Part shown: piece after piece, positions 660 to 25,248 of the stretch
How the letters are laid out: the number at the start of each line of letters is the position of its first letter
How positions within the stretch are numbered: the stretch's first letter is position 1
DNA from: an uncultured Oscillospiraceae bacterium
GTDB lineage: Bacteria > Bacillota > Clostridia > Oscillospirales > Oscillospiraceae
DNA length: 38,273 nucleotides
Assembly (NCBI GenBank): GCA_944386995.1
Contig: CALXDF010000127.1
Coordinates: 1 to 38,273, forward strand
Direction: 5' to 3'
The notes under the pieces: model-generated
Database searches by the model: none
What the model saw: only the letters and a program-made list of their open reading frames with translations
Told to the model about the DNA's origin: nothing
Program-made: the position numbers and the translations under genes

Positions 660-1082
660 TTGAATATCGCCAAATTTTTGACACCCAAGGCTAATTCCAT
701 CTATCTTCTGGAGTCCCAAACCGTCCGGCAGGGGCTGGAGAAGTTTAAATACCATGGCTATACCGCAATCCCTGTCCTTACTGAGAGCGGCGAATTCTAT
801 GGCTGCGTCAGTGAGGGTGACTTCCTGCGCCATTTGCTGCAGACAGGGACGGTCGATCTGAAGGTTCATGAGCGGTACAAAATCCGGGAAATCATGCGCC
901 AGGATTTCTGCCCGCCCCTGACCATCGTAGCAAGCTTAGAAGATGTGCTGGAACAGATCCAGAAGCAAAACTTCGTCCCCATTGTGGACGACCGCAACTG
1001 TTTCTGCGGCATTGTTACCCGTCGGGATGTTATTAAATATCTCTCGGAGCTGGCCTTTCAAAAAGAGACCACGGAAGTATAA
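660..1082 (+). CDS. CBS domain pair protein
   Basis: A 140-residue protein made almost only of two CBS motifs, roughly residues 5-60 and 75-135; such pairs usually bind adenine nucleotides. The second half contains the typical IVTRRDVIKYL ending of a CBS motif. The start is a TTG at 660, chosen because a strong AAAGGAGG (644-651) lies 8 bases upstream and because the open frame further upstream overlaps the ABC gene. It follows the amino acid ABC ATPase closely and is probably co-transcribed with it. CBS domains regulate some ABC importers (for example OpuA), so an energy-sensing role for the transporter is possible, but this is inference. A strong terminator follows. Confidence 0.85.
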   Translation: MNIAKFLTPKANSIYLLESQTVRQGLEKFKYHGYTAIPVLTESGEFYGCVSEGDFLRHLLQTGTVDLKVHERYKIREIMRQDFCPPLTIVASLEDVLEQIQKQNFVPIVDDRNCFCGIVTRRDVIKYLSELAFQKETTEV

Positions 1083-1103
1083 CCCATCATTTTTCAGCAG
1101 GAA

Positions 1104-1139
1104 AGAACGCCCTCAACCTTTCTGGGTTGGGGGCGTTCT
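1104..1139. terminator. Terminator between convergent genes
   Basis: A 15-bp stem (1104-1118 with 1125-1139, including one T-G pair on the plus-strand RNA) closes a 6-base loop and is followed on the plus strand by GTGTCTTTATATTTT. It ends the ABC/CBS transcript. It lies between convergent genes and may also stop the sipL transcript, although the minus-strand T-run (five Ts within CTGAAAAATG read the other way) is weak. Confidence 0.8.
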
Positions 1140-1145
1140 GTGTCT

Positions 1146-2690
1146 TTATATTTTGCGCCGGGGAATCAGCAGCAATTTATCCGCCGGGATCGCCTGCTCG
1201 CTCTCCACTTGGTTGGCCGACAGGATATCTGCGCAGGTGGTGCGGTACTGCTTGGCGATCTCCCAAAGCCGGCCGCTCCGGTCGAACTTGCGCAGGATCA
1301 CAGATGGCTGCCGCTGGGCGCTGGGTTCCGCCTCCTCCACAGAGGCATCTGCAATACAGAGCTTCTGGACCCGCTTTCCTGTATCCATCCAGAACTCCAG
1401 AGTGAAGCGGATCTCCATCCCTTCCGGCGACGGCGTACCGATAACTTCTCCAGGACAATGGAGCGTAATGCGCGGGGTGCTGTTCTCTCCGGATTCCATT
1501 TCTCCTTTCACCAGGATGGTTTTCTCCGCCAAGAGCACTGCATCGTTCTCGTCCAGATACAGGGCTTTGATGGTTACCGGGATCTCCGCAGTAGCCGTTC
1601 CCTCCCCCACCTGACAGGTGCAGCCTCCACAGGATACGGATACATGGCAGACCTGCCGCACAGCCACAGCGGTTTCCAGCGTCTCCCGCATATTCTGCTT
1701 CTTGGTAAACGAGCGGACCTCCTCTACCAAGGGCAGCGGCTGCGTAACCGGCACCACGTTTTTGGAAATACTGTACAGATCCGCCAAAAAGCGCAGGCGC
1801 TTTGTCTCCATCACCTCCACCGTGGAACGGATATGAAGGGACATGGTTATGGAGTGGGTGTCATCCGGCTCGCTTTCCGTTCCGATCAGATACTCGTAGC
1901 CGGTAAGGTCAAAAACCGCTTTTGCCATCCCTGTTTCCTCAGAGGCGGTGGTTTCCGCAATCTGAGAAAACAGGAACTCCTGGGCCAAAGTTGCCAGCGC
2001 TCCCTCCTGATCCCGATAGAGCACATCGCTGCGGATAATCCCCTTGAGCACCAGTTTATTCCCCACAATCTTAGAGTCAGCGGGATAGATGTAGGTAGCT
2101 GTGTCCAGAATCTCCTGGATCCCGCTGCGGCCGGCAGACAGGCCGAGTTCCTCGGTATAGGGGAACTCCCGCTCCAACACATCGGTGATCACAGTGGTAT
2201 CCGCACACTCCTCCAGCACCTGTAAGCCGCAGGCTTCATCGGCCTCCACCGCCGTACAGAGGCCGGCCTCCTGCTGGCGGTAACCAACGCTCTCCAGGGT
2301 GATTTCTGCCCGTGTCAGGAGTTTCCTAGGATTGAGAAGGCGGGAGTCGATACTCTTCAGCCTGGCGCTGACGGTATAGCGGGCGCAGGCCGCTATATTT
2401 CGTCCCTCGCAGTAGTTATGAAAGGGTACCGAAAGATGTAATGCGCACAAATCTGTGCTGCCCTCCGGGATAAAGAGAACCGTCGCCTTGATGGCGCCGC
2501 CCACCTCCACGCGGCCATCGGGAGTCATCTCTTTGTTGTGTACCAGCACTGTACCAGTGGTATCCACCACCCGTGCTACGTCCTGACAGTAGTCAGGGAC
2601 AATGGTCTCCTGCGTGGTCTCAAAAGAAAATGGCGTCTCGCTGACCGCCTCATAGTATGAGAAGGTCTCTTTTTTCAGATTCAGTTCCAT
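1146..2690 (-). CDS. sipL: SipL-like spore coat morphogenesis protein (SPOCS/DUF3794 repeats plus LysM)
   Basis: A 514-residue protein with SPOCS (DUF3794) modules at about residues 30-115, 175-260 and 340-430, and a C-terminal LysM at about 460-510 (RLWEIAKQYRTTCADILSAN, ending in LLLIP). This architecture and length match SipL of Clostridioides difficile, which binds the coat ATPase SpoIVA at the forespore surface. The ATG at 2690 was chosen because GGGAGG lies just upstream and family members begin MELNLKKE. An in-frame ATG at 2750 exists, overlapping the stop of the upstream micro-gene, but has a poor ribosome site. The upstream micro-gene encodes a SpoVM-like peptide, so both partners of the coat basement layer lie together here. 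The family is clear; the exact coat role is by analogy with C. difficile. Confidence 0.85.
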   Translation of the reverse strand: MELNLKKETFSYYEAVSETPFSFETTQETIVPDYCQDVARVVDTTGTVLVHNKEMTPDGRVEVGGAIKATVLFIPEGSTDLCALHLSVPFHNYCEGRNIAACARYTVSARLKSIDSRLLNPRKLLTRAEITLESVGYRQQEAGLCTAVEADEACGLQVLEECADTTVITDVLEREFPYTEELGLSAGRSGIQEILDTATYIYPADSKIVGNKLVLKGIIRSDVLYRDQEGALATLAQEFLFSQIAETTASEETGMAKAVFDLTGYEYLIGTESEPDDTHSITMSLHIRSTVEVMETKRLRFLADLYSISKNVVPVTQPLPLVEEVRSFTKKQNMRETLETAVAVRQVCHVSVSCGGCTCQVGEGTATAEIPVTIKALYLDENDAVLLAEKTILVKGEMESGENSTPRITLHCPGEVIGTPSPEGMEIRFTLEFWMDTGKRVQKLCIADASVEEAEPSAQRQPSVILRKFDRSGRLWEIAKQYRTTCADILSANQVESEQAIPADKLLLIPRRKI

Positions 2691-2746
2691 TGCTGTCCTC
2701 CCTCTGACGCTCTTGTCATGGACAGTGTATGAGGGAGGGACGACCT

Positions 2747-2821
2747 TCATGCCTTTACTTTAAAGATTTTTCGCAGCAGGGTTCCCAGAAATTTTGGGGG
2801 CTTGACAATGACAACTCGCAT
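2747..2821 (-). CDS. spoVM: SpoVM-like amphipathic spore membrane micropeptide
   Basis: A 24-residue ORF beginning MRVVIVKPPKFLG and continuing with an alternating Leu/Ile and Lys/Arg stretch. Compared with B. subtilis SpoVM (26 residues, starting MKFYTIKLPKFLG) it keeps K7, P9, K10, F11, L12, G13 and R17. Pro9 matters in SpoVM for recognising the curved forespore membrane. SpoVM anchors SpoIVA, the partner of SipL, and sipL is the next gene downstream. The ATG at 2821 is preceded by AAAGGAG (2830-2836), which overlaps the stop codon of the upstream small ORF, so translation is probably coupled. The gene is far below normal gene-calling length cut-offs. Identification rests on motif, length and neighbourhood together. 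Confidence 0.82.
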   Translation of the reverse strand: MRVVIVKPPKFLGTLLRKIFKVKA

Positions 2822-2834
2822 CAAAATCGCTCCT

Positions 2835-2984
2835 TTACCGTCGTCTGATACAGGCCCAGCCGCATCCTATCAGCAGGGATGCTACCAGAAACAGGAGCAG
2901 CCCCGTGGGGAAGATGGCACAGATAAAGATCCCCAGCCCCAGGCACAGGGCGCAGACCCCGATCAGCCAATACTTATTGCACAA
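2835..2984 (-). CDS. Small hydrophobic membrane protein upstream of spoVM
   Basis: A 49-residue ORF with two hydrophobic helices (about residues 6-24 and 26-43), a short polar start (MCNKYW) and an Arg-rich end (CIRRR). It should insert in the membrane as a hairpin. Start choice: TTG at 2984 lies 8 bases after GGAGG (2993-2997). Another in-frame TTG at 2990 is too close to that site. The stop codon overlaps the ribosome site of spoVM, which supports real translation. I do not recognise the family. Position at the head of a spoVM-sipL cluster suggests a sporulation-time membrane role, which is inference only. It contains four or five cysteines, unusual for so small a protein. Confidence 0.6.
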   Translation of the reverse strand: MCNKYWLIGVCALCLGLGIFICAIFPTGLLLFLVASLLIGCGWACIRRR

Positions 2985-3016
2985 GCACAATCCCTCCCGT
3001 TTTTCTGTTCTTTACC

Positions 3017-3022
3017 AGTATA
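3017..3022 (-). promoter_or_regulatory. Possible -10 element for the spoVM-sipL cluster
   Basis: Read on the minus strand this is TATACT, 27 bases before the first ribosome binding site region and directly after the rsgA terminator. No TTGACA-like -35 is present at 17 bases; that position falls in the terminator hairpin. A sporulation sigma factor (E or K) would be expected here, but the match to their consensus is poor. Weak call. Confidence 0.3.
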
Positions 3023-3028
3023 GCAAAA

Positions 3029-3054
3029 GCAGCCGGAGGGGTTCCTCCGGCTGC
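3029..3054 (-). terminator. Terminator after rsgA
   Basis: A perfect 11-bp GC-rich stem (3029-3039 with 3044-3054) with a 4-base loop. On the minus strand it is followed by TTTTGCTA. It lies 13 bases beyond the rsgA stop codon and ends the long cdaA-to-rsgA gene array. Confidence 0.85.
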
Positions 3055-3067
3055 CGTAATTGTGCAG

Positions 3068-3994
3068 CTATTTCCCGCTTGACGTCTTCTCTGCCGCTGC
3101 ACGGGGAGATCTCTGTTCCCATGCCTTTACATGTTTGAGCTCCTGAAACAGGCGCAGATAACTGTCATGGCGGCTCTTCGGGATTATGCCATCCTTCACT
3201 GCCCGAAGCACCGCACAGCCCTTCTCCTTAGTATGGCTGCATCCCACAAAACGGCATTGTCCCAGATAGGGGCGAAACTCCGGAAACGTCTCCGGCAGAT
3301 GCTCTTTCCACTCCAACGTGCCCTCTGACACATCAAAGGAGCTGAACCCCGGGGTATCCACCACTCGGGCACCACAGCGCAGGACAAACAATTCCACATG
3401 CCGGGTTGTATGCCGGCCCCGCCCCAGTTTTTCGCTGACCTCTCCCGTGCTGATGGAAAAGTCCGGTTCAATAGCGTTGAGAATACTGGATTTTCCAACC
3501 CCGGAGTTCCCGGTAAAAGCAGTGAGCTTTCCCTGGAGCAGCGGGATCAGGTCCCTGATGCCCTCGCCAGTCTGGGCGCTGACCGTGACCGTCGTCATCC
3601 CCGCCTGTTCATAAATCGCCCGCAGTTCCTCGGCCCGATCCAAATCACACTTGTTCAGGACTAAAATTGTAGGGCACCCCTTCAAGGCAGCGATCGAGGA
3701 GACACGGTCGATGAGAAAAGGATCTGTCTCCGGGATCGCATGGGAGGCCACCACCACCAGCTGATCGATGTTTGCTACCGCCGGCCTGGAAAAGGCGTTT
3801 TTCCTGGGCTCGATGGACCAGACCATTCCCCCCTCTTCCCCGTCAGCCTCCCGAACTTCTACCCAGTCCCCCACCAGGGGGGACATGCCGTCCTTGCGGA
3901 ATTTGCCACGGGCCCGGCAGCGCAGGACGCTGCCGTCTTCCCCTGCCACATAATAGAAACCGCTGAGGGCTTTGACGATCTGTCCCCGGCTCAT
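3068..3994 (-). CDS. rsgA: Ribosome small subunit-dependent GTPase A
   Basis: RsgA (YloQ/CpgA) is a circularly permuted GTPase that proofreads late 30S assembly. The 308-residue protein shows an N-terminal OB fold, then the permuted order of motifs: G4 NKCD at 114-117, G1 GNSGVGKS at 162-169 and G3 DTPG at 213-216. A C-terminal zinc knuckle has Cys247, Cys252, His254 and Cys260. Length is normal. Its ATG overlaps the stop of the PASTA kinase gene by four bases (ATGA), so translation is coupled. In B. subtilis the equivalent gene also follows prpC-prkC and its product is a PrkC substrate. It is the last gene of the array. Confidence 0.95.
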   Translation of the reverse strand: MSRGQIVKALSGFYYVAGEDGSVLRCRARGKFRKDGMSPLVGDWVEVREADGEEGGMVWSIEPRKNAFSRPAVANIDQLVVVASHAIPETDPFLIDRVSSIAALKGCPTILVLNKCDLDRAEELRAIYEQAGMTTVTVSAQTGEGIRDLIPLLQGKLTAFTGNSGVGKSSILNAIEPDFSISTGEVSEKLGRGRHTTRHVELFVLRCGARVVDTPGFSSFDVSEGTLEWKEHLPETFPEFRPYLGQCRFVGCSHTKEKGCAVLRAVKDGIIPKSRHDSYLRLFQELKHVKAWEQRSPRAAAEKTSSGK

Positions 3995-15679: not shown

Positions 15680-16324
15680 TCAGCACCAGAAAAAGCGCAC
15701 CCCGCCGCAAGTGACAGCGTTGCACAGGCAATAGGCGCAGGCCAGCCGCCCGCACATATTATCGCCGCAGCCGCTGGTAAAAACTTCATACCCCTCCGGG
15801 CGGTATGACTGTGCGCTGCTGGACAGCCGCTCCAGTGCCTGGGCATATTCCATATTTCCAGGCGCAAGCTGACAGGCGGTCTCATAATTGCGCCTGGCCT
15901 CGTCCAGCCAGCCGCGCCGCTGACAGATCACGCCCTTGAGAAAGTACCACTCGCCGTTGTGCTCTAAAAGAATGGACAGCAGGTGGTCGGCCATGTGGAG
16001 GTCGCCTCTGGTGATTGCAGCCCGGATCTCACGGAAACGAGGATCTGTCTGGGCACCATAACTCCCATAGCCGCCATAGCCGGAAGCTGACCGACCATAG
16101 GCACCAGAGGGGTTGCTGGAGGCCCCGCGGCCGCTCCCGCGCATCCTCATGATCGTATCATAGGCCTCGTTGATCTCCTTCATCTTCTCTTGGGCCAAGT
16201 CCTCCAGCGGGCTGTCGTGGTAATTGTCCGGATGATATTTGCGTGCCAATTCCCGATAGGCCTTTTTAACCTCCTCGTCAGAGGCGGTGCTGGGGACATT
16301 CAGAATCTTGTAAGGGTCGTTCAT
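15680..16324 (-). CDS. J-domain protein with TPR-like middle and Cys-rich tail
   Basis: A 214-residue DnaJ-type co-chaperone. The J domain occupies about 1-60 with HPD at 31-33. A Gly/Ser/Tyr-rich linker (about 65-93) leads to a short TPR-like region (about 95-165, with LLEHNGEWYFLKGVICQRRG and ARRNYETACQLAP). The last 32 residues contain seven cysteines, ending in FFWC. It lacks the zinc-finger and substrate domains of true DnaJ, so it is a specialised J protein that would stimulate a DnaK. Its start overlaps the stop of the DUF5685 gene by four bases, suggesting a shared function. The Cys-rich end could bind metal or anchor the protein; function unknown. Confidence 0.85.
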   Translation of the reverse strand: MNDPYKILNVPSTASDEEVKKAYRELARKYHPDNYHDSPLEDLAQEKMKEINEAYDTIMRMRGSGRGASSNPSGAYGRSASGYGGYGSYGAQTDPRFREIRAAITRGDLHMADHLLSILLEHNGEWYFLKGVICQRRGWLDEARRNYETACQLAPGNMEYAQALERLSSSAQSYRPEGYEVFTSGCGDNMCGRLACAYCLCNAVTCGGVRFFWC

Positions 16325-17211
16325 ACCTGCTCCTTCTTACCGCGGAGGCCCCTCCTGCTCTCCGCAGCGCGAAATGTTCCTTCTAAAACCGCATTGCCCA
16401 CACAATACAGGCCCTGGTAGACGGTCGAGCGAATGATCGGACTCCACACGCCGAAATCCCACAGCTCATAGGCCGCAGCCATCTGGCGGATCGAGGCATC
16501 CAGCGTGGACACAACCACGTCCCGGGCTTGTCCGGTCAGAATTCCGTCTTTCAGGGAAAAGCGCAGGGAAATTGGGTTGTAATTCCCGCTTTCCACATCT
16601 TTTTTTAAATCATCCAGGGCATCCACCAGATAGATCCACCGCCCCAAGTGGTAAAGCAAGTGCTCCAGGACCCGCCGCCGGACCGGCTCTTCCACCTCTC
16701 CGGCCACGCTGGACAGCAGTGCGGCAAAGGTGTCTGCCGGCTCGTCCAGAGATGGGCAGCCAGCTTTCTCCAGCTCGGAAAGACGCTCCAACTCCCGCCG
16801 GGCGGCAGCATCCAGCGCCGGATGCAGGCCGGCCGCTCGCCGGTAAGCCCGTCCCATCGCGGCTCCGGCTGCCTGGAACCCCAAGCAACGGACCCCGCGG
16901 CTGTCCTCCGCCCCGTCCCGGAGCTTCCAGTAGGTAAAAAGGATACTCACATCTGCCGCCAGGTCCAGCGCCGGATTTTCACATGCCACCGGGCGCTTTT
17001 TGAAAGGCCCTGCAATACACCGGCGGTTCTCTGTCCCGATCGTTCCAGACAGAAGAGCCGCCAGGAAGGTAAAATCATAGTTGAGCACCATGCGGCATAC
17101 CGCCCCGTACCGTCTGGCCAGGGTATGGCACAGGCCGCAGTACAGGGCGCGGTAGCGCTGTTCTTCTTCCGCCGTCAGTTTATCCGGGGCTGGCTGTACA
17201 TATCCAAACAT
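16321..17211 (-). CDS. DUF5685 family protein
   Basis: A 296-residue protein of unknown function, recognised as DUF5685 by its start MFGYVQPAPDKLT and the motif YRALYCGLCHTLARRYG, followed by a second Cys pair in RRCIAGPFKKRPVACENPAL. Four N-terminal cysteines could form a metal site. The rest is helical and soluble, with LGRWIYLVDALDDLKKDVE, an Asp-rich segment that resembles the metal-binding Asp motifs of all-helical enzymes. It is coupled by ATGA to the J-domain gene, and starts three bases after the rseC stop with only a weak ribosome site. I know of no established function. Confidence 0.8.
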   Translation of the reverse strand: MFGYVQPAPDKLTAEEEQRYRALYCGLCHTLARRYGAVCRMVLNYDFTFLAALLSGTIGTENRRCIAGPFKKRPVACENPALDLAADVSILFTYWKLRDGAEDSRGVRCLGFQAAGAAMGRAYRRAAGLHPALDAAARRELERLSELEKAGCPSLDEPADTFAALLSSVAGEVEEPVRRRVLEHLLYHLGRWIYLVDALDDLKKDVESGNYNPISLRFSLKDGILTGQARDVVVSTLDASIRQMAAAYELWDFGVWSPIIRSTVYQGLYCVGNAVLEGTFRAAESRRGLRGKKEQV

Positions 17212-17214
17212 CGG

Positions 17215-17622
17215 CTACAGCTTTTTCCGGATCGTAAAGCGGATTCCCCCCTGGCGCCGCCAGCGGCGGTCACACAGGATGGCCGGGACACAGCCAGCCG
17301 CTGTGGCGAGCACTGTCAAAACAGTGTGCCAAACTCCGCTGCCGGTCAAGGCTCCCAGTGCGTACCCGGCGAAAAAAGCAGCGAAAGGCACCAGATATAC
17401 CAGCGCCGCAACGCCGAGAATCCTCCCGTTGCCGCTGGCCACTTCCACCCGGTCCCCTACCGATACCCCCAGCGGATCCTCGGCCACAGCCCGGATTGTC
17501 CCCGCCTGGGCGCCGCACCCGGCACAGTTTTCACAGTCGTGTCCGCAGGCGGTCTGCCTAGCCACAGCGATCCGCACACGGCCGCCTTCCAGGATCTGTT
17601 CCACAGTTGCTGTCTGCGTCAT
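17215..17622 (-). CDS. RseC/MucC-like membrane protein (SoxR-reducing system type)
   Basis: A 135-residue RseC-family protein. Residues 25-36 hold a four-cysteine cluster (ACGHDCENCAGC) that may carry an Fe-S centre. A beta-rich domain continues to about 70 with the typical VSVGDRVEV motif, and two transmembrane helices follow at about 70-90 and 96-115, with a basic C-terminus. Relatives work with sigma-E control or with Rnf-type electron transfer. No rnf or rse genes are visible here, so the role is open. Good GGAGG before the ATG. Confidence 0.85.
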   Translation of the reverse strand: MTQTATVEQILEGGRVRIAVARQTACGHDCENCAGCGAQAGTIRAVAEDPLGVSVGDRVEVASGNGRILGVAALVYLVPFAAFFAGYALGALTGSGVWHTVLTVLATAAGCVPAILCDRRWRRQGGIRFTIRKKL

Positions 17623-17633
17623 AGCGCCTCCTG

Positions 17634-18875
17634 CTACCCGCCGATCTGGACGGTGATCTGATAGGAGCCGACAGCTCCGACATCCTCCGCCCCGTCCACA
17701 TAAACCGTGGCCGGAACCGTATAACTGCCGGCCTGGGCGCTGATATCGGTCAGATCGCCCACCACGCGGATATTGTGTGCGGTGACATCCGCCAACTCCG
17801 CCGCCGGTCCCCGGAGCGTAACCTCCAGCGTGTTGGAAACAACGGTGACCGCACTGCCATCAGGCTCGTTGATATAGGAAATGTTGCTGGTCTCAAAGGT
17901 CTCCGTGGTCACCGTATCCTTAAACGTGATCAACACCGTGGCTTCCGTCTCTCCGGAGACACTGGTAGAACCCGCAGGAATGGGGATGGGGACGGTAAAC
18001 GACGTATCCCCGGTGAGCTTGCTCAGGTCGATATCCGTCAACGTCACGTTCTCCAGCCGCCCGATGCTCCGGCTGTCGCCGGAAATGGTGATCGTACTGG
18101 GCTCAACGGTGACATCTGCATCTGCCAATGTGGACCCCGGGGACTCTGTAATGTCAATCACCAGCGGCAGCTCCTTGATCATAAGGATAGGCACATTGAC
18201 CTCCACCGTCTCCACATTTGTCCGGAAGGTGCTGTTTTCAATCACATCGCCATTATAGTCGATCAATTGGAACTCAGCCACCGTAGAGAAAGATTCCGTA
18301 GCCCCGGTGATATCTACGGTGACCAGCGCGTGACTGATGTTGGCAACAGCCATCTGCTCACCGGATACGGTGATGGCATCCTGGTCAAAGGTCATCTCCC
18401 CTACTACATATCCCTCTGCCGGGGTTCCGCTGCGCTCGCCCCGGATGGGGACAGATTTGGTGTAGAGTTCCACCACATCCACAGTAATGCTGTAAGCGCT
18501 GGCATAGTCCACCGTCACACTGTTGCGGTAGACACTGTCCGGCAGGATCAGTTCCCAATCCAGGGTGTTGGGCCCTGTGCTTGTGATGGAATCCAGCCGC
18601 ACCCGCAGCCGGATCTCATCCTTTCCCCGATCCAGGTTGTTAATCACGGTTCGGTTGCTGCTGCTCAGCTCCAGATCAATTGTAATGTTCATATCACTGG
18701 TGACCAGCAGGCCCCGCTCCATCAACACGTCCTCCCCGGTAAACTCTACCGGTATATTGTTGACCCGCACGGTGCGTGGCTCAGTATCCTGGCTGTCCAC
18801 ATAGACCCAGATCACCAGCGCCACCAGGATGGAGATGATAATACGAACTGTTCTTTTATTCCAGAATTCACGCAT
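17634..18875 (-). CDS. cdaR: CdaR-type YbbR-domain regulator of the diadenylate cyclase
   Basis: A 413-residue protein with one N-terminal transmembrane helix (about IIISILVALVIWVYV) and an extracellular region of four YbbR-like repeats, each with the pattern of a Val-rich beta sandwich. CdaR modulates the CdaA cyclase, whose gene it overlaps here. Two starts are possible: ATG 18875, about 12 bases after AAGGA, or ATG 18887 or 18884, which sit almost on that site. I chose 18875. In Bacillus, glmM follows cdaR; here rseC follows instead. Confidence 0.92.
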   Translation of the reverse strand: MREFWNKRTVRIIISILVALVIWVYVDSQDTEPRTVRVNNIPVEFTGEDVLMERGLLVTSDMNITIDLELSSSNRTVINNLDRGKDEIRLRVRLDSITSTGPNTLDWELILPDSVYRNSVTVDYASAYSITVDVVELYTKSVPIRGERSGTPAEGYVVGEMTFDQDAITVSGEQMAVANISHALVTVDITGATESFSTVAEFQLIDYNGDVIENSTFRTNVETVEVNVPILMIKELPLVIDITESPGSTLADADVTVEPSTITISGDSRSIGRLENVTLTDIDLSKLTGDTSFTVPIPIPAGSTSVSGETEATVLITFKDTVTTETFETSNISYINEPDGSAVTVVSNTLEVTLRGPAAELADVTAHNIRVVGDLTDISAQAGSYTVPATVYVDGAEDVGAVGSYQITVQIGG

Positions 18876-19761
18876 GGCGGTCATCATCCTTCTTCGGTTT
18901 CAGGATGTTGCGCACATCCCGCAGCAGCGACGGCTTCTTCTCCTCTTTTGTCTCATCATCCTTGGGAAGAAGCTCGTTGTACAGCAGCATCCTCAGCGTC
19001 TCCGTGGTGAGATGCCGCTTCAGCATCCCGCCCACTGCCACTGAGATAGAGCCGGTCTCCTCGGAGACCAGCACCACCACCGCATCTGAGTTTTCGCTCA
19101 TGCCGATACCAGCCCGGTGACGCATGCCCAGGTCTCGGCTCAAATTGACGTTTCGGGACAATGGAAGCATACAGCCGGCCCCAAGGACCCGCCCCTCCCG
19201 CATGATAAGGGCTCCGTCGTGCATCGGCGCTTTGACAAAGAAAATGTTCTTCAGCAGTTCTGGGCTGGGTTCGGCATCCAGCTTGGTACCGCTGCGCAGG
19301 ACCTCGTCAAGAGCATTCTTCCGCTCAAAGACAATCAGAGCGCCGGTACGGCTCTTGCTCATGTCGCCGCAGGCCTCTACCGTCACGGTAATGGCGTGTT
19401 CGATGTCGCCCAGCTGCTGCTCCTTATTAAAGATCTTTAGAAAAGAGAACCGACTGCCGCCGACCTGCTCCAAAATCCGGCGGATTTCAGGCTGAAAGAG
19501 GATGATCAGCGCCAGAACGCCCCATTCCATCAGCATTCTCAAAACGAACTCCAGGCTGCGCAGCTGGAAAAACGAGGACAACAACAGCGCCAGCAGGACG
19601 ATCAGGACGCCCCTCAGAAGCCTCTCGGAGTTGGTGCTGCGAACCAATCCCAGCAGCCGGTATACCAAATAGGCGATAATTGCAATATCCAAAATATCTG
19701 TCAACTGCATGTTGAACAGGTACTGGTTACACAACGCCACAATATTCGTCCAAATCTCCAT
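18868..19761 (-). CDS. cdaA: Membrane diadenylate cyclase CdaA
   Basis: Makes cyclic di-AMP, the essential second messenger for potassium and osmotic balance. The 297-residue protein has three N-terminal transmembrane helices (about 24-40, 50-66 and 74-90) and a DAC domain with DGA at 182-184 and RHR at 214-216, the catalytic signature. ATG 19761 follows GAGGAGCGGGCA. It is the first gene of the long array, with a good promoter just upstream. Length and order cdaA-cdaR match other Firmicutes. Confidence 0.96.
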   Translation of the reverse strand: MEIWTNIVALCNQYLFNMQLTDILDIAIIAYLVYRLLGLVRSTNSERLLRGVLIVLLALLLSSFFQLRSLEFVLRMLMEWGVLALIILFQPEIRRILEQVGGSRFSFLKIFNKEQQLGDIEHAITVTVEACGDMSKSRTGALIVFERKNALDEVLRSGTKLDAEPSPELLKNIFFVKAPMHDGALIMREGRVLGAGCMLPLSRNVNLSRDLGMRHRAGIGMSENSDAVVVLVSEETGSISVAVGGMLKRHLTTETLRMLLYNELLPKDDETKEEKKPSLLRDVRNILKPKKDDDRHA

Positions 19762-19800
19762 TGCCCGCTCCTCGTTGATGCGTATTCACATAGATACTTT

Positions 19801-19829
19801 ATTTTATAATAGATACCTGGAAATTGCAA
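19801..19829 (-). promoter_or_regulatory. Promoter of cdaA (head of the long array)
   Basis: On the minus strand, -35 TTGCAA (19824-19829) and -10 TAAAAT (19801-19806) are separated by 17 bases. The start point would be near 19794, leaving about 33 bases before the cdaA ATG. GAATACGCA (19831-19839) and TGCGTATTC (19779-19787) form a perfect 9-bp inverted repeat flanking the promoter. Confidence 0.65.
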
Positions 19830-19868
19830 GGAATACGCAGGGGCAATTTGCATCAATTTGTAAATTTT

Positions 19869-20981
19869 TTATTGCCGGAGTCTCTGCAGGAAAGACTCTA
19901 CCTCTCCGCCCGTATTGAAGGCAGAAACGGAGAAGCGAACCGTTCCGCCAGCGAAAGTCCCCGCAGTCTGATGGGCGTATGGCGCACAGTGGAAGCCCCC
20001 ACGCAGGGCAAACCCGGCCTCGGCCATGGCCTGGCAGAAGGTTTCGCTGTCCGTCTCCGTCGGTACCAGTGACAGAACGCCGGCTTGCAGGTGTGGTTCC
20101 TCTGTGCCAAAGACGCGGAAACGGCGGTCTCCGGCTAAGCCGCGGCGCAGCTGCTCCTTTAACTGCCATCCATGGTGGCCGATGGCCTCCACCCCAACGC
20201 GCCGGACAAATCGAATCCCTTCCAGGAGTCCCGCCACACCCGGCATGTTGTGGGTGCCCGCCTCCATCCGGTCTGGCAGAAAATCCGGCATGGACTGCTC
20301 CTTGGAGTTGCTGCCCGTGCCGCCGCAGAGCAGGGGCTTTCCCGCTGATGCGCAGAGCAGAATGCCGGTGCCCTGAGGGCCGTAGAGCCCCTTGTGGCCC
20401 GGCATGGCGACGAAATCTGCGCCCAACTCCCCCATGTGGATGGGGACGGAACCGGCAGACTGAGAAGCATCTACAATCAGCGGCACACCACGTTCCCGGC
20501 ACAGCCGGGCAATTTCCGAAACGGGCAGAATATAACCGAACACATTGGAGACATGGGTACAAATCACCGCATCCGTCCCCTCTGTCACCAGTTCACGAAA
20601 TCCCTGCACCATAGCTGTCTGGTCAAAGAGCGGTGTATTGACCACATGGATCCGCAGGTTTGGAATGGCGTGAAGAGGGCGGGTAACGGCATTGTGTTCA
20701 TATCCGGAAATCACCACCCGTCCCCCGGGCGGAACCAGGGAATGAATGGCGATATTCAGTGCATGGGTTGCGTTGGAGGTAAAAACTACATTTTCCGGGT
20801 CCTCCAAGCCGAACAGGGCGCTGATCTCCTCCCGGCAGGCATAGAGGGTCTCCGCGGCCAGCGCCGCGCTCTGGTAATTGCCCCGTCCAGGCGAGCTCAT
20901 GGTCTCCATAGCCCGCACAACCGCCCGGCGGACAGCCGGCGGCTTTTGAAAGGTGGTGGCTGCTGCATCAAAATAAATCAT
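19869..20981 (-). CDS. Cysteine desulfurase-family PLP enzyme (class V aminotransferase)
   Basis: A 370-residue class V PLP enzyme. It opens IYFDAAATTF, has the cofactor aspartate in VDASQSAG (Asp171), the PLP lysine in GHKGLYGPQG (Lys197) and a cysteine in RGGFHCAP (Cys332) at the place of the persulfide cysteine in this subfamily. It belongs to the group usually labelled cysteine desulfurase family protein in Firmicutes, distinct from IscS/NifS. It is coupled by a four-base overlap to a DUF3343 gene. Together they likely handle sulfur or selenium mobilisation. No selD or scaffold gene is nearby, so the acceptor is unknown. Confidence 0.88.
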   Translation of the reverse strand: MIYFDAAATTFQKPPAVRRAVVRAMETMSSPGRGNYQSAALAAETLYACREEISALFGLEDPENVVFTSNATHALNIAIHSLVPPGGRVVISGYEHNAVTRPLHAIPNLRIHVVNTPLFDQTAMVQGFRELVTEGTDAVICTHVSNVFGYILPVSEIARLCRERGVPLIVDASQSAGSVPIHMGELGADFVAMPGHKGLYGPQGTGILLCASAGKPLLCGGTGSNSKEQSMPDFLPDRMEAGTHNMPGVAGLLEGIRFVRRVGVEAIGHHGWQLKEQLRRGLAGDRRFRVFGTEEPHLQAGVLSLVPTETDSETFCQAMAEAGFALRGGFHCAPYAHQTAGTFAGGTVRFSVSAFNTGGEVESFLQRLRQ

Positions 20982-21199
20982 AGGGCCGCCACCTTCACCG
21001 GGTTGATCTGATGATGGCGCAGAATCCCCATGGCCCGGTCCAACTGCTCAGAGCGGACCCGGACGGAATAACTGCACCCCCGCTCGGTCAGTCCGGCGGG
21101 TGAACGAAACACCTGGTTGGTGATCCCAAAAGAGGTCAACAAGCGCCCGGCACGCTGGGCCTGGGTCACCGACCGGCAGACAATGAGATGATGGTTCAA
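20978..21199 (-). CDS. DUF3343 putative Se/S carrier-like protein
   Basis: A 73-residue DUF3343 protein. It shows the family pattern of an N-terminal strand (HHLIVCRSV), a helix, then a pair of conserved cysteines: C8 and the later C in RGCSYSVRV. The start is TTG 21199, preceded by GAGGGGG. The family is often described as a Se/S carrier because it sits beside cysteine desulfurase-like genes, as it does here with a four-base overlap. Biochemical proof is lacking to my knowledge. Confidence 0.82.
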   Translation of the reverse strand: MNHHLIVCRSVTQAQRAGRLLTSFGITNQVFRSPAGLTERGCSYSVRVRSEQLDRAMGILRHHQINPVKVAAL

Positions 21200-21236
21200 G
21201 AGAATATCCCCCTCTCAGCGTATCATATGAGCGCAA

Positions 21237-21271
21237 GCGGGGAGGCGTGCCCCATGGCTGCGCCTCCCCGC
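21237..21271. other. Strong intergenic hairpin after ispF
   Basis: An 11-bp perfect GC-rich stem (21237-21247 with 21261-21271) with a 13-base loop, between the ispF stop and the DUF3343 start. No T-run follows on either strand, so intrinsic termination is doubtful; it could be a factor-assisted terminator or a processing/stability element. Confidence 0.55.
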
Positions 21272-21282
21272 CGGAAGTCTCT

Positions 21283-21768
21283 TCACTTGTCTGCCTCAAT
21301 CAGACAAACTGCATGTGCAGCAATGCCCTCCCCCGTGCCGGTGAAGCCCAGGTGCTCCTCCGTAGTAGCCTTTACATTAACTTGCCCTTCCGGAATTCTC
21401 AAATCCCCGGCAATCCGCCGGCGCATCTCCGCAATGTAGGGCGCCAGTTTCGGTGCCTGGGCAATAATGGTTGCATCTACATTGACTACATGCCATCCAT
21501 TCTGCGCCAGCATCGCCGCCACCTGCTGCAGCAGGCCGCGGCTGTCCGCTCCGGCATAGTTGGGGTCGCTGTCCGGGAACTGCCGTCCGAGATCCGGCAG
21601 GGCCGCCGCCCCCAGCAGAGCGTCCATCACTGCATGGAGCAGCACATCCGCATCAGAATGCCCCAAAAGGCCGCGCTCCCAGGGGATCTCTACACCGCCC
21701 AGAACCAACCTGCGCCCCTGGGTCAGGCGGTGAACATCATACCCGTGTCCAACACGCAGTCCTGTCAT
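21283..21768 (-). CDS. ispF: 2-C-methyl-D-erythritol 2,4-cyclodiphosphate synthase
   Basis: Fifth enzyme of the MEP isoprenoid pathway. The 161-residue protein has the metal-site motif GHGYDVHRL (Asp11, His13), the [20 protein letters not shown] block and the C-terminal [17 protein letters not shown] loop, all diagnostic. Its ATG overlaps the ispD stop by four bases. It ends the carD-ispD-ispF group. Confidence 0.96.
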
Positions 21769-22502
21769 CCTGCCGCCTCCCGGTTCTCCCAGATGGCCTC
21801 TGCCAGCACGAGGTCAATAGGTGTCGTGATTTTCAGATTCTCATAAGAACCCTCTGTAAGAAAAACCTGCTTGCCAAGGCGTTCTACCGCCGAGCAGTCA
21901 TCAGTAATCGGCGCGGCGCTGTCACGAGCGGCCTGGAGGGCCCCCTGGAGCAGATCCCGGTCAAACACCTGGGGCGTCTGTACCGCATAGAGTGCAGAGC
22001 GGTCCGGCGTTTGCTCCACAATGCCGCCGGAAGCCACCTTGATTGTGTCCTTCACCGGCACCGCCGGGGCCGCAGCGTAGGTCTCCGCCGCACGCCGAAT
22101 TGTCTCATCAATCAGCGCCGCCGTTACCAGGGGCCGCGCTCCGTCATGTACCGCGATAAGATCTGCCGCCTCATTGCACTCCGCCAAGGCAGCCATTACG
22201 GAATCCAGCCGGCTCTCCCCCCCGCAGACTACCTTGACCGGCTTTCCAGTTACATAAGCCCTGCAGATCTCCGCCACAGCCAGCAGTTCATCCTCTCTGG
22301 CCGCCACCACAATTTCGGAGATCAGCTCCGATTGGGACAGCGCCTCTACCGTCCGCCCCAGCACGGGTGCACCGCCCAGAGAGGCGAAGAGTTTGTTCTC
22401 CCCCTCCATGCGGCTGGACGCGCCCGCCGCCGGCACAACGGCACTGCAAAACAGAGGCCGCGTCTCCCCGCGTCCCAAAAATTTCTTCAAAAAGCCAAAC
22501 AT
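21765..22502 (-). CDS. ispD: 2-C-methyl-D-erythritol 4-phosphate cytidylyltransferase
   Basis: Third enzyme of the MEP pathway; transfers CMP to methylerythritol phosphate. Motifs include [17 protein letters not shown] near the start, GGESRLDSV and VHDGARPLV. The 245-residue protein carries about 17 extra N-terminal residues ([17 protein letters not shown]), basic and amphipathic, before the nucleotide-binding strand. The start at 22502 follows the carD stop with no gap, so translation is coupled to a regulator gene. Confidence 0.94.
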
Positions 22503-22991
22503 CTATGCTCCTTCACTCATCAGTGATGCGTTCAGCCGTCCCTCCACTACACCATAGGGCAAATTCTTCGCCAGTACAATCTCTGAGATAAAGATCTGCT
22601 TGGCGCTGTGCAGCATCTTCCGTTCTCCGGTGGAAAGGCCGCGCTGACTGTCCCGAATGGTCAGGCACTTAATAACTCGCGCCACTTCATAGAGGTCGCC
22701 GCTCTTGAGCCGCTCCAGATTTTCCCGATAACGGCGATTCCAATTGCTGGTCACATCAATCTGGAGACCCGCCAGCGCGTCGATCACCTGGTCGGCATAA
22801 TCTGCATCCACGACTGCCCGCAGGCCAACGGCATTGCTGTTTGCAGTGGGGATCTTGAGCACCAGTCCATTCACCGGCATCCGAAAGACATAGTACGCCT
22901 GTGTCTTCCCGTTGATGCGCTCATCGACAATACTGTCGATGACCCCGGCCCCGTGCATGGGATGCACGACCTTATCCCCTATCTGAAACAT
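22503..22991 (-). CDS. carD: CarD/CdnL-family RNA polymerase-binding regulator
   Basis: A 162-residue CarD_CdnL_TRCF protein that binds the beta subunit of RNA polymerase and stabilises open complexes. The N-terminal RID-like domain (about 1-60) starts MFQIGDKVVHPMHGAG, typical of the family; the helical C-terminal DNA-binding domain follows, with NWNRRYRENLERLKSGDLYEVARVIKCL. The ATG follows GGAGGGAAT. It directly precedes ispD, a linkage also seen in other Firmicutes, and its promoter drives both isp genes. Confidence 0.93.
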   Translation of the reverse strand: MFQIGDKVVHPMHGAGVIDSIVDERINGKTQAYYVFRMPVNGLVLKIPTANSNAVGLRAVVDADYADQVIDALAGLQIDVTSNWNRRYRENLERLKSGDLYEVARVIKCLTIRDSQRGLSTGERKMLHSAKQIFISEIVLAKNLPYGVVEGRLNASLMSEGA

Positions 22992-23018
22992 ATTCCCTCC
23001 TATTCCCTTTTCATGCCC

Positions 23019-23036
23019 ATTGACCGCAAAGTCAAT
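23019..23036. promoter_or_regulatory. Inverted repeat in the carD leader
   Basis: ATTGAC (23019-23024) and GTCAAT (23031-23036) form a 6-bp inverted repeat with a 6-base spacer, between the carD promoter and its ribosome binding site. It could be an operator. No matching regulator is evident. Confidence 0.35.
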
Positions 23037-23050
23037 CTCTTATAACAAAT

Positions 23051-23079
23051 AGTATAGACCTGTTTTGCTATAAGTTCAA
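23051..23079 (-). promoter_or_regulatory. Promoter of carD-ispD-ispF
   Basis: On the minus strand, -35 TTGAAC (23074-23079) and -10 TATACT (23051-23056) with 17 bases between. This is a near-consensus vegetative promoter, about 60 bases before the carD start codon. The rest of the 277-base gap up to the ispH-rpsA stop holds a terminator (23221-23254) and nothing else that I recognise. Confidence 0.75.
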
Positions 23080-23220
23080 GGAAATACGGGAATATTTTAC
23101 TAAATTTTTTCCGGATTCTCCCTGTTTCCGTCGCTTATGTGCCGCAAACGTTCTCGGGAATAACTGCGCAGGCATGATGCCCCCCCGGCTTTTCCCCCCG
23201 GTCTCACACCCCTGCACAGT

Positions 23221-23254
23221 AAAACAGCAGGTGACAACCATCACCTGCTGTTTT
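23221..23254. terminator. Terminator after ispH-rpsA
   Basis: A perfect 14-bp stem (23221-23234 with 23241-23254) around a 6-base loop. The outer four pairs are A-T, giving a TTTT tail on both strands. It ends the rpiR-to-rpsA transcript 15 bases after the stop codon. Confidence 0.88.
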
Positions 23255-23268
23255 GAAAGAAACCGCTT

Positions 23269-25248
23269 TTACTCAGCGTCCTCGCTCTCGGAAGCCTCCT
23301 CAGCGGCAGTCTCCTGGCCGAGAAGGGCGCGGATCGACAGGGAGATGCGCTTGCGCTCCTCATCCACCTCAATGATCTTGGCCTCTACAACCTCACCCTC
23401 GCTCAGGCAGTCAGCGGGGCTGTCAATCCGGCGGTCGGCAATCTGGGAAATGTGAACCAAACCGTCCACACCAGGCACAACCTCAGCAAAAGCACCGAAG
23501 GACATCAGCTTGACGATCTTCACCTTGGCTACGTCGCCGACCTTATAGGTCTCCATAAACTTCTCCCAGGGATTGGTGGAGCGATCCTTCACGCCCAGAG
23601 AGATCTTCTTCTTATCCTTGTCAAAGGAAATGACATACACATCCAGGGTGTCGCCAACCTTCACCACCTCGGAAGGATGCTTGATACGGCTCCAGGACAG
23701 GTCGGAGATATGTACCATACCGTCCACGCCGCCGATGTCCACGAACACGCCATAGCTGGTCATACTCTTCACCGTACCGGTATAGTGCTTGCCGGCCTCG
23801 ATACCGTCCCACACAGCGGCAGCGGCGGCAGCCCGGGCCTCCTGCTGCACGGCGCGGATGGAACCAACTACCCGGCGGCGGGCACGATTGACCTCAGTAA
23901 TGCGCAGCTGCACCTTCTGCTTGAGCAGCTGGTTCAGGTCGGCTTCACGAGGCAGGCCAGACTGGGAAGCAGGGACAAACACCCGCACACCCTTGATAAA
24001 CACCACAAGGCCGCCCTTGTTGACCTCAGAGACGGTACCCTCCATCACGGTCTTGCTCTCAACAGCCTCCTCCAGAACCTCCCAAATCTTGTTAGCTTCC
24101 AGGCGCTTCTTGGAGAGGGTGGCATAGCCGTCCACATCATTGACACGGACCACGAACAGCTCCACCTCGTCGCCGATCTTCACAACGTCTGTCGGTTTGA
24201 CATTGGGATCGTCACTGAGCTGATCCAGGGGGATATAGCCGGTCTGCTTGCATCCCAGATCCACATGGACCTCGGTGGGGGTGATGTCAATGACCACACC
24301 GGTGACCTTATCTCCTGTATGCAAAGTATTGGTATACTGTTCAACCATTTCCGCAAAGTTTTCGCCAGTCTCCCCGCTTTCCACGGTCTCGTTCAGGATT
24401 TTTTCTTCACTCATCGTCTTGTTGACCTCCTTTATGATGCCCGCCGGTGCAGAGGCTCCCGCCGTCAGCCCCACCACTCGGCACCCGGATAACTTGTCCA
24501 TCGGAAGGTCTTCCGCCCGCTCCACAAGAAATGTCTGCGGGCACAGCTCTTTACACAAGTCGTACAGATGTCTTGTATTGGCACTTTGCCGGTCACCAAC
24601 CACCACCATCCCGTCCACAGCAGAGGCAATCTCCACTGCCTCTGATTGGCGGTTATGCGTAGCACAACATATTGTATCAAAGATTTTTACGTTTGTACAC
24701 TGTTTTTTTAGAAAATTCACAGATTCTTCCCAGATTTCTCTGGTCTGTGTGGTCTGTGCCGCCACCGACATCGGCAGCGGACAGGGGGCATCCTGCTTTT
24801 TCAGCCATTTTTTCAGAGAATCCGGGTCCGGAAACACTAAAACGCTCTCCCCCCATCCGCAGATCCCACGGATCTCCGGGTGTTCCGGATCCCCGATCAG
24901 CACCATCTGCCGCCCCTCGTCCCGGGCCTGGCGGGCAATGGACTGAATACGCCGGACGTGCGGACAGGTCCCGTCCAGCACACGGCACCCGCGCTCAGCC
25001 AGCGTCCGATAGGTCGCCTCGGCCTCCCCATGGGCGCGAATCACCACCGTCTCTCCCGGCTGCGCATCCTCCGCCCGGGCAATCAGCCGGGCACCCCGGC
25101 GGCACAGGTCCGCGATCACCTGCCCATTGTGGATCACCGGTCCCAGCATAGCCGGCCGCTCTCCGGCGGTTACCGACGCCTCCGCAAGCTCCACCGCGCG
25201 GCGTACACCGTAACAAAACCCGGCGGACCTTGCCTCAATTACCAGCAT
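23269..25248 (-). CDS. ispH-rpsA: IspH-ribosomal protein S1 fusion (HMB-PP reductase / S1)
   Basis: A 659-residue two-part protein. Residues 1-279 are IspH, the [4Fe-4S] enzyme ending the MEP pathway. Its ligands Cys12, Cys95 and Cys194 are present, as are His40, His73, His123, Glu125, a Thr-rich AAQTTQT segment, the SAN motif at 222-224 and Ser266. Residues about 310-640 hold four S1 domains (about 312-382, 400-465, 485-555 and 570-640), with an acidic tail. The frame is continuous, with no stop between the halves. Such fusions are known in Clostridia. An in-frame ATG at 24414 (Met279) with a perfect ribosome site suggests that S1 is also made alone. The gene overlaps plsC by 14 bases. Confidence 0.95.
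   Translation of the reverse strand: MLVIEARSAGFCYGVRRAVELAEASVTAGERPAMLGPVIHNGQVIADLCRRGARLIARAEDAQPGETVVIRAHGEAEATYRTLAERGCRVLDGTCPHVRRIQSIARQARDEGRQMVLIGDPEHPEIRGICGWGESVLVFPDPDSLKKWLKKQDAPCPLPMSVAAQTTQTREIWEESVNFLKKQCTNVKIFDTICCATHNRQSEAVEIASAVDGMVVVGDRQSANTRHLYDLCKELCPQTFLVERAEDLPMDKLSGCRVVGLTAGASAPAGIIKEVNKTMSEEKILNETVESGETGENFAEMVEQYTNTLHTGDKVTGVVIDITPTEVHVDLGCKQTGYIPLDQLSDDPNVKPTDVVKIGDEVELFVVRVNDVDGYATLSKKRLEANKIWEVLEEAVESKTVMEGTVSEVNKGGLVVFIKGVRVFVPASQSGLPREADLNQLLKQKVQLRITEVNRARRRVVGSIRAVQQEARAAAAAAVWDGIEAGKHYTGTVKSMTSYGVFVDIGGVDGMVHISDLSWSRIKHPSEVVKVGDTLDVYVISFDKDKKKISLGVKDRSTNPWEKFMETYKVGDVAKVKIVKLMSFGAFAEVVPGVDGLVHISQIADRRIDSPADCLSEGEVVEAKIIEVDEERKRISLSIRALLGQETAAEEASESEDAE
24414..24433 (-). 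promoter_or_regulatory. Internal Shine-Dalgarno and ATG at the IspH/S1 junction
   Basis: On the minus strand AAAGGAGGT (24425-24433) lies 10 bases before an in-frame ATG (24412-24414) that begins MSEEKIL. The Shine-Dalgarno bases are simultaneously codons of IspH's end (IIKEV). This would start a separate 381-residue S1-domain protein. Confidence 0.7.

Follow-up and report, generated by a model that had tools for sequence, protein, structure and literature searches.

A 24-codon reading frame in the window, the whole stretch of 38,273 nucleotides analysed here from an uncultured Oscillospiraceae bacterium, is probably the spoVM gene of its genome and the second of three genes in a sporulation unit ordered hairpin, spoVM, sipL. 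The first of these is a previously unnamed gene for a membrane microprotein with two predicted helices, here called the hairpin, and it accompanies spoVM more widely than sipL does. The features of the region, all on the (-) strand, are as follows.

1146..2690, (-): sipL, 514 aa, with a SPOCS (SipL) domain (PF12673, E 3.2e-16, 59.7 bits) and a C-terminal LysM domain (PF01476, E 1.9e-4, 21.7 bits)
2747..2821, (-): spoVM, ATG at 2821 and TGA at 2749-2747, 24 codons plus stop, product MRVVIVKPPKFLGTLLRKIFKVKA
2830..2835, (-): AAGGAG, ribosome site of spoVM read from the sequence, 8 nt ahead of the ATG at 2821
2835..2984, (-): gene for the small membrane hairpin, 49 aa (start TTG 2984) or 51 aa (start TTG 2990), two helices predicted
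3016..3024, (-): -10-like element GCTATACTG, preceding the hairpin gene
3028..3055, (-): terminator-like stem after rsgA, between rsgA and the proposed hairpin-spoVM-sipL unit
3068..3994, (-): rsgA, the upstream neighbour, outside the proposed unit

The spoVM reading frame and its conservation

The first-pass annotation had proposed a 24-codon frame with a good ribosome site, and both are present on the (-) strand as proposed. The AAGGAG shares one base with the TAA of the hairpin gene (2837-2835), and the spoVM TGA overlaps an upstream ATG (2750) that is in frame with sipL. The residues it had singled out, K7, P9, K10, F11, L12, G13 and R17, are all found in the translated frame, and presumably they are the same residues in B. 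subtilis SpoVM.

The proposal that this frame encodes SpoVM is supported by the NCBIfam model NF033436 (SpoVM_broad), which matches residues 1-23 with an E-value of 3.1e-7 and 30.2 bits, 0.8 bit short of the curated cut-off of 31; the product has the short length (24 aa, below 30) and the proline (P9) of SpoVM. Pfam gives no match to the peptide at E<=1, and a PDB sequence search with the 24-mer gives zero matches at E<=10. Trained on 33 family peptides, a SpoVM model scores it at 41.0 bits, a fitted value in that the peptide is itself among the 33 seeds; the 83 fetched family loci, when reversed, score no higher than 9.4 bits. Of the 169 genomes with a SipL match, 83 supplied one locus each: those from G000 to G106 with a listed place, plus G157. 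In the assembly of the window genome (222 contigs totalling 2.49 Mb, 79.7% complete) the frame is the sole NF033436 match at E<=10.

The peptide is conserved among relatives of the window genome, which were sampled in a draw of 200 genomes of its family (f1). NF033436 has matches in 82 of the 200 at E<=0.1 and scores above its cut-off in 17. In 27 aligned peptides, hand-picked from the family set, the 24-codon frame is kept and P9 is invariant, with L16 and F20 at 90%; NF033436 recognises 24 of the 27 at E<=0.01, and Pfam SpoV matches just one, weakly (E 0.04). Both same-genus relatives in the draw have the spoVM frame, start, ribosome site and P9 intact, and substitutions between them and the window genome are mostly synonymous (pN/pS 0.08-0.27, a rough value from 24 codons). 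The 33-peptide model adds 21 non-seed loci with a peptide before sipL, two of them taken by eye (G070 and G015, below the 12-bit line among the 54 loci counted with spoVM). Both family models scanned their own training loci, comprising 33 SpoVM seeds and 45 hairpin seeds, one of the latter an odd variant (G078).

Taken with the NF033436 match, the frame and P9 kept in relatives and the mostly synonymous substitutions make it very likely that the 24-residue frame is a real spore-coat SpoVM gene, and three other readings were rejected on the conserved peptide and position, the single match in the genome, and the homologues without an adjacent sipL. A decayed or redundant SpoVM copy, with the working spoVM elsewhere in the genome, would fit a score slightly below the NCBI cut-off, and another copy could be absent from an assembly that is 79.7% complete; however, this is the sole match at E<=10, both same-genus relatives keep the frame intact along with its start, ribosome site and P9, and pN/pS is low, all of which makes such decay very improbable. 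A leader peptide or upstream ORF regulating sipL translation is suggested by the position just ahead of sipL and by the overlap of the TGA with an ATG in the sipL frame, but the peptide sequence is conserved and homologues are present where sipL lies elsewhere, and we give regulation of this kind equally little credence. Least probable is a chance ORF: the frame is short, and 116 ORFs of at least 20 aa overlap the first 8 kb, but both peptide and position are conserved, and 41.0 bits stand against a best reversed score of 9.4.

Gene order upstream of sipL

The annotation named sipL as the next gene, and a SPOCS plus LysM protein indeed begins downstream, its ATG at 2690 lying 56 nt past the spoVM stop and preceded by a ribosome site of its own, GAGGGAGG. 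The PF12673 and PF01476 scores both exceed their cut-offs. SpoIVA is encoded on another contig of the window genome (G000:C19; PF09547, E 1.6e-116).

The spoVM-sipL order is kept in relatives, as had been suggested as a check, and this neighbourhood is a conserved trait of the family. All 60 family SpoVM matches at E<=1e-3 lie directly upstream of sipL on the same strand; 58 are placed by the match table (57-303 nt ahead of the sipL match, or closer bounds) and two by fetched loci, in one of which the downstream sipL is cut by a contig end. At E<=0.01 the order holds in 73 of 75 matches, the two others being a true exception, G110, where hairpin and spoVM lie together on one contig and sipL on a different one, and a fragmentary match in G090. 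With the threshold relaxed to E<=0.1 (86 matches), 75 adjoin sipL by table and two more after fetching (G148 and G004), the remaining nine being G110, G090, G009, G135 and G196 together with second matches in G014, G077, G143 and G150. These adjacency counts are minimum values, among the matches listed, and a missing adjacency is uncertain. A scan of contigs with SipL found two loci in relatives, both ordered hairpin, spoVM, sipL.

The regions ahead of sipL were compared in 80 family loci, each with at least 450 nt upstream of sipL. The hairpin gene (at least 20 bits) is present in 60 and spoVM in 54; 38 loci have both, the hairpin stands alone in 22 and spoVM in 16, and four have neither, so that no spoVM is recognised ahead of sipL in 26 of the 80. 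The 22 hairpin-only genomes have zero SpoVM matches at E<=0.1 across their whole assemblies, and a few of the 16 spoVM-only loci have a diverged hairpin-like ORF in the hairpin slot. We note that in G014, G019, G022, G064 and G068 this slot is occupied by a hydrophobic ORF of diverged sequence that carries a short basic tail (a motif like LLHP...GYRGR), a possible hairpin variant.

The hairpin gene and its distribution

The hairpin start at 2984 was chosen because the nearest relative has GTG at the aligned codon. AlphaFold2 predicts helices at residues 4-26 and 30-50 (mean pLDDT 72.8, pTM 0.37), and with modest confidence we describe the product as a two-helix helical hairpin. Residues M1, G16, P26, L38 and G42 are invariant in 30 aligned members, with M1 hand-written in some rows; pN/pS is 0.08-0.34, and the hairpin model reaches at best 9.4 bits on reversed family loci. 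Searches of Pfam and NCBIfam with the 30 members found no fitting family: the few matches are weak (best E 0.003 and 0.0034) and spread over families, with at most four of the 30 members per family, and were read as chance likeness of hydrophobic helices.

Outside the family, an order-level draw of 147 genomes includes 80 in which SpoVM is matched at E<=0.01. At least 19 of the 80 have a SipL domain in the same orientation no more than 1.5 kb downstream (four of six from f1, and at least 15 of 74 from other families), and sipL is divergent and just upstream in at least seven of the 80; otherwise it is elsewhere or not among the matches listed, with G000 and G145 scored as not downstream solely because they are absent among the SipL matches listed. 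In seven genomes of the order (G447, G467, G448, G468, G484, G499 and G532) a divergent sipL lies just upstream of hairpin-spoVM, an arrangement in which one promoter region could serve both units.

The hairpin gene follows spoVM more closely. Profile A1, made of sequences from the window's family only, matches 77 of the 147 order genomes at E<=1e-3, 40 of which also have a SpoVM match; in all 40 the hairpin precedes spoVM in the same orientation, 15-239 nt away, and among these genomes the window genome alone contributed a row to A1. The hairpin-spoVM order persists where sipL has another location, as six of the seven genomes of family f75 show. At these thresholds, 40 SpoVM genomes have no hairpin match and 37 hairpin genomes no SpoVM match.

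A class-level draw of 245 genomes includes 45 with SpoVM at E<=1e-3, and many SipL matches, among the matches listed, sit far off or on other contigs. Profile A3, which adds order and class sequences and includes some picked for preceding spoVM, matches 110 of the 245 at E<=0.01, although some of the weakest lie within long frames and are probably false. In all 24 genomes where both genes are matched, the hairpin precedes spoVM by 20-141 nt; 12 of the 24 are outside the profile, and a further 21 SpoVM genomes have no hairpin match. Twenty loci with a hairpin and no NF033436 match were fetched, mostly the better-scoring of 86 class genomes, and in 13 a SpoVM-like ORF follows the hairpin immediately, its proline being residue 8 in two of the 13. 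At the phylum level, 71 of 398 genomes have hairpin matches at E<=1e-3; among 29 loci examined, 22 have a clear SpoVM-like ORF with P9 downstream, three are ambiguous, and four have none by the filter, one of which (G363) does carry a SpoVM match. Twenty of the 22 clear loci are outside the class, six of them in a single genus. The hairpin loci surveyed are L065-L147 in the family and L206-L235, L246-L265 and L267-L295 in the order, class and phylum. Tandem hairpin genes are suggested by two nearby matches on one contig and strand in L153 (G332), G355:C144, G281:C13, G309:C38 and G254:C70, and in G332 both matches precede spoVM.

Since the hairpin stays with spoVM across the order, the class and beyond while sipL is often elsewhere, hairpin-spoVM looks like the older unit and sipL like a lineage-specific neighbour. 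The earlier idea of one basement-layer cassette is supported with two corrections: the spoVM-sipL order is kept, but the third, upstream gene had been missed, and sipL is a lineage-specific member, downstream in at least 15 of 74 genomes outside the family.

The proposed unit and comparison with known systems

The sequence ahead of the hairpin gene contains candidate expression signals. The -10-like element matches the pattern [CTG][AGC]TA[TGC][AG][AC]TG, which occurs in the 120 nt ahead of the hairpin in 37 of 59 family loci and in eight of 467 control windows, the pattern having been fitted on the same loci; the element resembles the mother-cell -10 box, CATACAAT. Two-box sigma-E patterns show no enrichment before the hairpin: the two tried occur in 0 and 1 of the 59 loci, and in 6 and 11 of 458 control windows. 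Terminator-like sites number four in positions 1000-3200, where 2.2 are expected in shuffles. A long stem with a T-rich tail at 1104-1139, between sipL and a convergent gene ending at 1082 (+), may be a terminator for both strands.

Upstream of the proposed unit the window has the gene order yicC, priA, fmt, rsmB-like, rlmN-like, PP2C, prkC, rsgA (rsmB and rlmN being named from reading the ORFs), and in the 83 fetched family loci, some of them short, rsgA is upstream of sipL in 61 (tblastn), prkC in 59 and a PP2C gene in 58. The yicC-to-rsgA order is, we presume, that of the B. subtilis spoVM neighbourhood, where spoVM is taken to lie by prkC-rsgA and sipL not to be there; on this likeness, the slot after rsgA would be old for spoVM and sipL would be the newcomer. 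Farther along the window, the region 16321-25248 (-) contains genes for DUF5685, YbbR, a CdaA-like diadenylate cyclase, a class-V aminotransferase, and a 659-aa protein fusing LytB (IspH) with S1 domains.

An alternative accepts the peptide as SpoVM and regards its neighbourhood as passive, with sipL having landed once, in an ancestor, in an old slot after rsgA and the order being inherited without co-regulation or joint function. The frequent location of sipL elsewhere in other families of the order, the ribosome site that sipL has for itself, and the presumed absence of sipL from the prkC-rsgA neighbourhood of B. subtilis spoVM are all consistent with it. Against it, all 60 confident family matches keep the order and a short spacing, a terminator-like stem and a -10-like element lie ahead of the hairpin gene (the place where the element was sought), and other families also have sipL beside hairpin-spoVM (at least 19 downstream and at least seven divergent, of 80). 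We consider passive inheritance unlikely, if a good deal more credible than the decayed-copy, leader-peptide and chance readings, and favor the three-gene sporulation unit.

By analogy with other species, the hairpin-spoVM-sipL unit would be expressed in the mother cell. SpoVM would form an amphipathic helix, kinked at P9, that attaches to the curved outer membrane of the forespore and assists SpoIVA in encasing it, and SipL would bind SpoIVA via its LysM domain, with the coat built on that base; it is from these other species that we infer joint action of SpoVM, SpoIVA and SipL in the window organism. The hairpin would be a small integral protein of the outer forespore membrane that either helps SpoVM to insert or anchors the SpoIVA-SipL layer, and we regard the case for such a membrane partner, placing SpoVM or the SpoIVA-SipL layer, as evenly balanced. 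A broader proposal is that the hairpin (about 49 aa) is a widespread, unrecognised partner of SpoVM, the two being an ancient pair across the class and beyond with C. difficile CD25622 as a member, and that it may take over membrane anchoring where spoVM is not recognised (22 of 80 family loci); this seems to us as plausible as its negation. If hairpin, SpoVM and SipL do form one unit, then coat-base assembly in these gut Clostridia has a membrane component never studied alone, and if the hairpin does take over anchoring, this might be the reason that many clostridia lack SpoVM or can do without it. SpoVM is seldom annotated, and the hairpin offers a positional handle, as in the 13 of 20 class loci described above.

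The available text of several papers bears on these genes. In C. difficile, sigma-E controls spoIVA, sipL and spoVM, and SpoIVA is bound by SpoVM and, through LysM, by SipL (PMC5607322). The same source places spoVM near rpmB and describes CD25622, a 50-aa protein of unknown function termed unique to the Peptostreptococcaceae, whose gene immediately precedes spoVM and shares a transcript with it; C. difficile can largely do without spoVM, and a CD25622 insertion, likely polar on spoVM, is essentially no worse than spoVM loss (PMC5607322). Galperin et al. (2012) did not find SpoVM in several clostridia, and did not decide whether these have divergent forms with the same role (PMC3533761). SpoVQ (CD3457) of C. 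difficile is a bitopic membrane protein at the outer forespore membrane that works with SpoIVA and SipL, both of which its soluble domain binds (PMC8265636). No description of spoVM and sipL as neighbours was found in the available text of PMC5607322, PMC3533761, PMC7985256, PMC6436350, PMC8265636 and PMC9542656. The openly available literature that was searched yielded CD25622 as the only comparable gene upstream of spoVM, and nothing on spoVM with Oscillospira sporulation genes or on spoVM together with small proteins and synteny in clostridia.

The window peptide is like known SpoVM (NF033436; B. subtilis and C. difficile) in its length, P9, basic and hydrophobic pattern, and the one copy found, and its gene follows a prkC-rsgA cluster, presumably as in B. 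subtilis. It differs in scoring 0.8 bit below the NCBI cut-off and in a gene that adjoins sipL behind a hairpin gene. The window SipL is like that of C. difficile in combining SPOCS with a C-terminal LysM domain, whereas the family sipL is encoded directly after spoVM. The hairpin (49-51 aa) is reminiscent of CD25622 in length and in its position directly upstream of spoVM, a likeness of size and gene order, and sipL is not reported in the CD25622-spoVM transcript. SpoVQ may be a functional analogue of the hairpin but, compared by description, it is bitopic with a soluble domain, whereas the hairpin is almost wholly two predicted helices.
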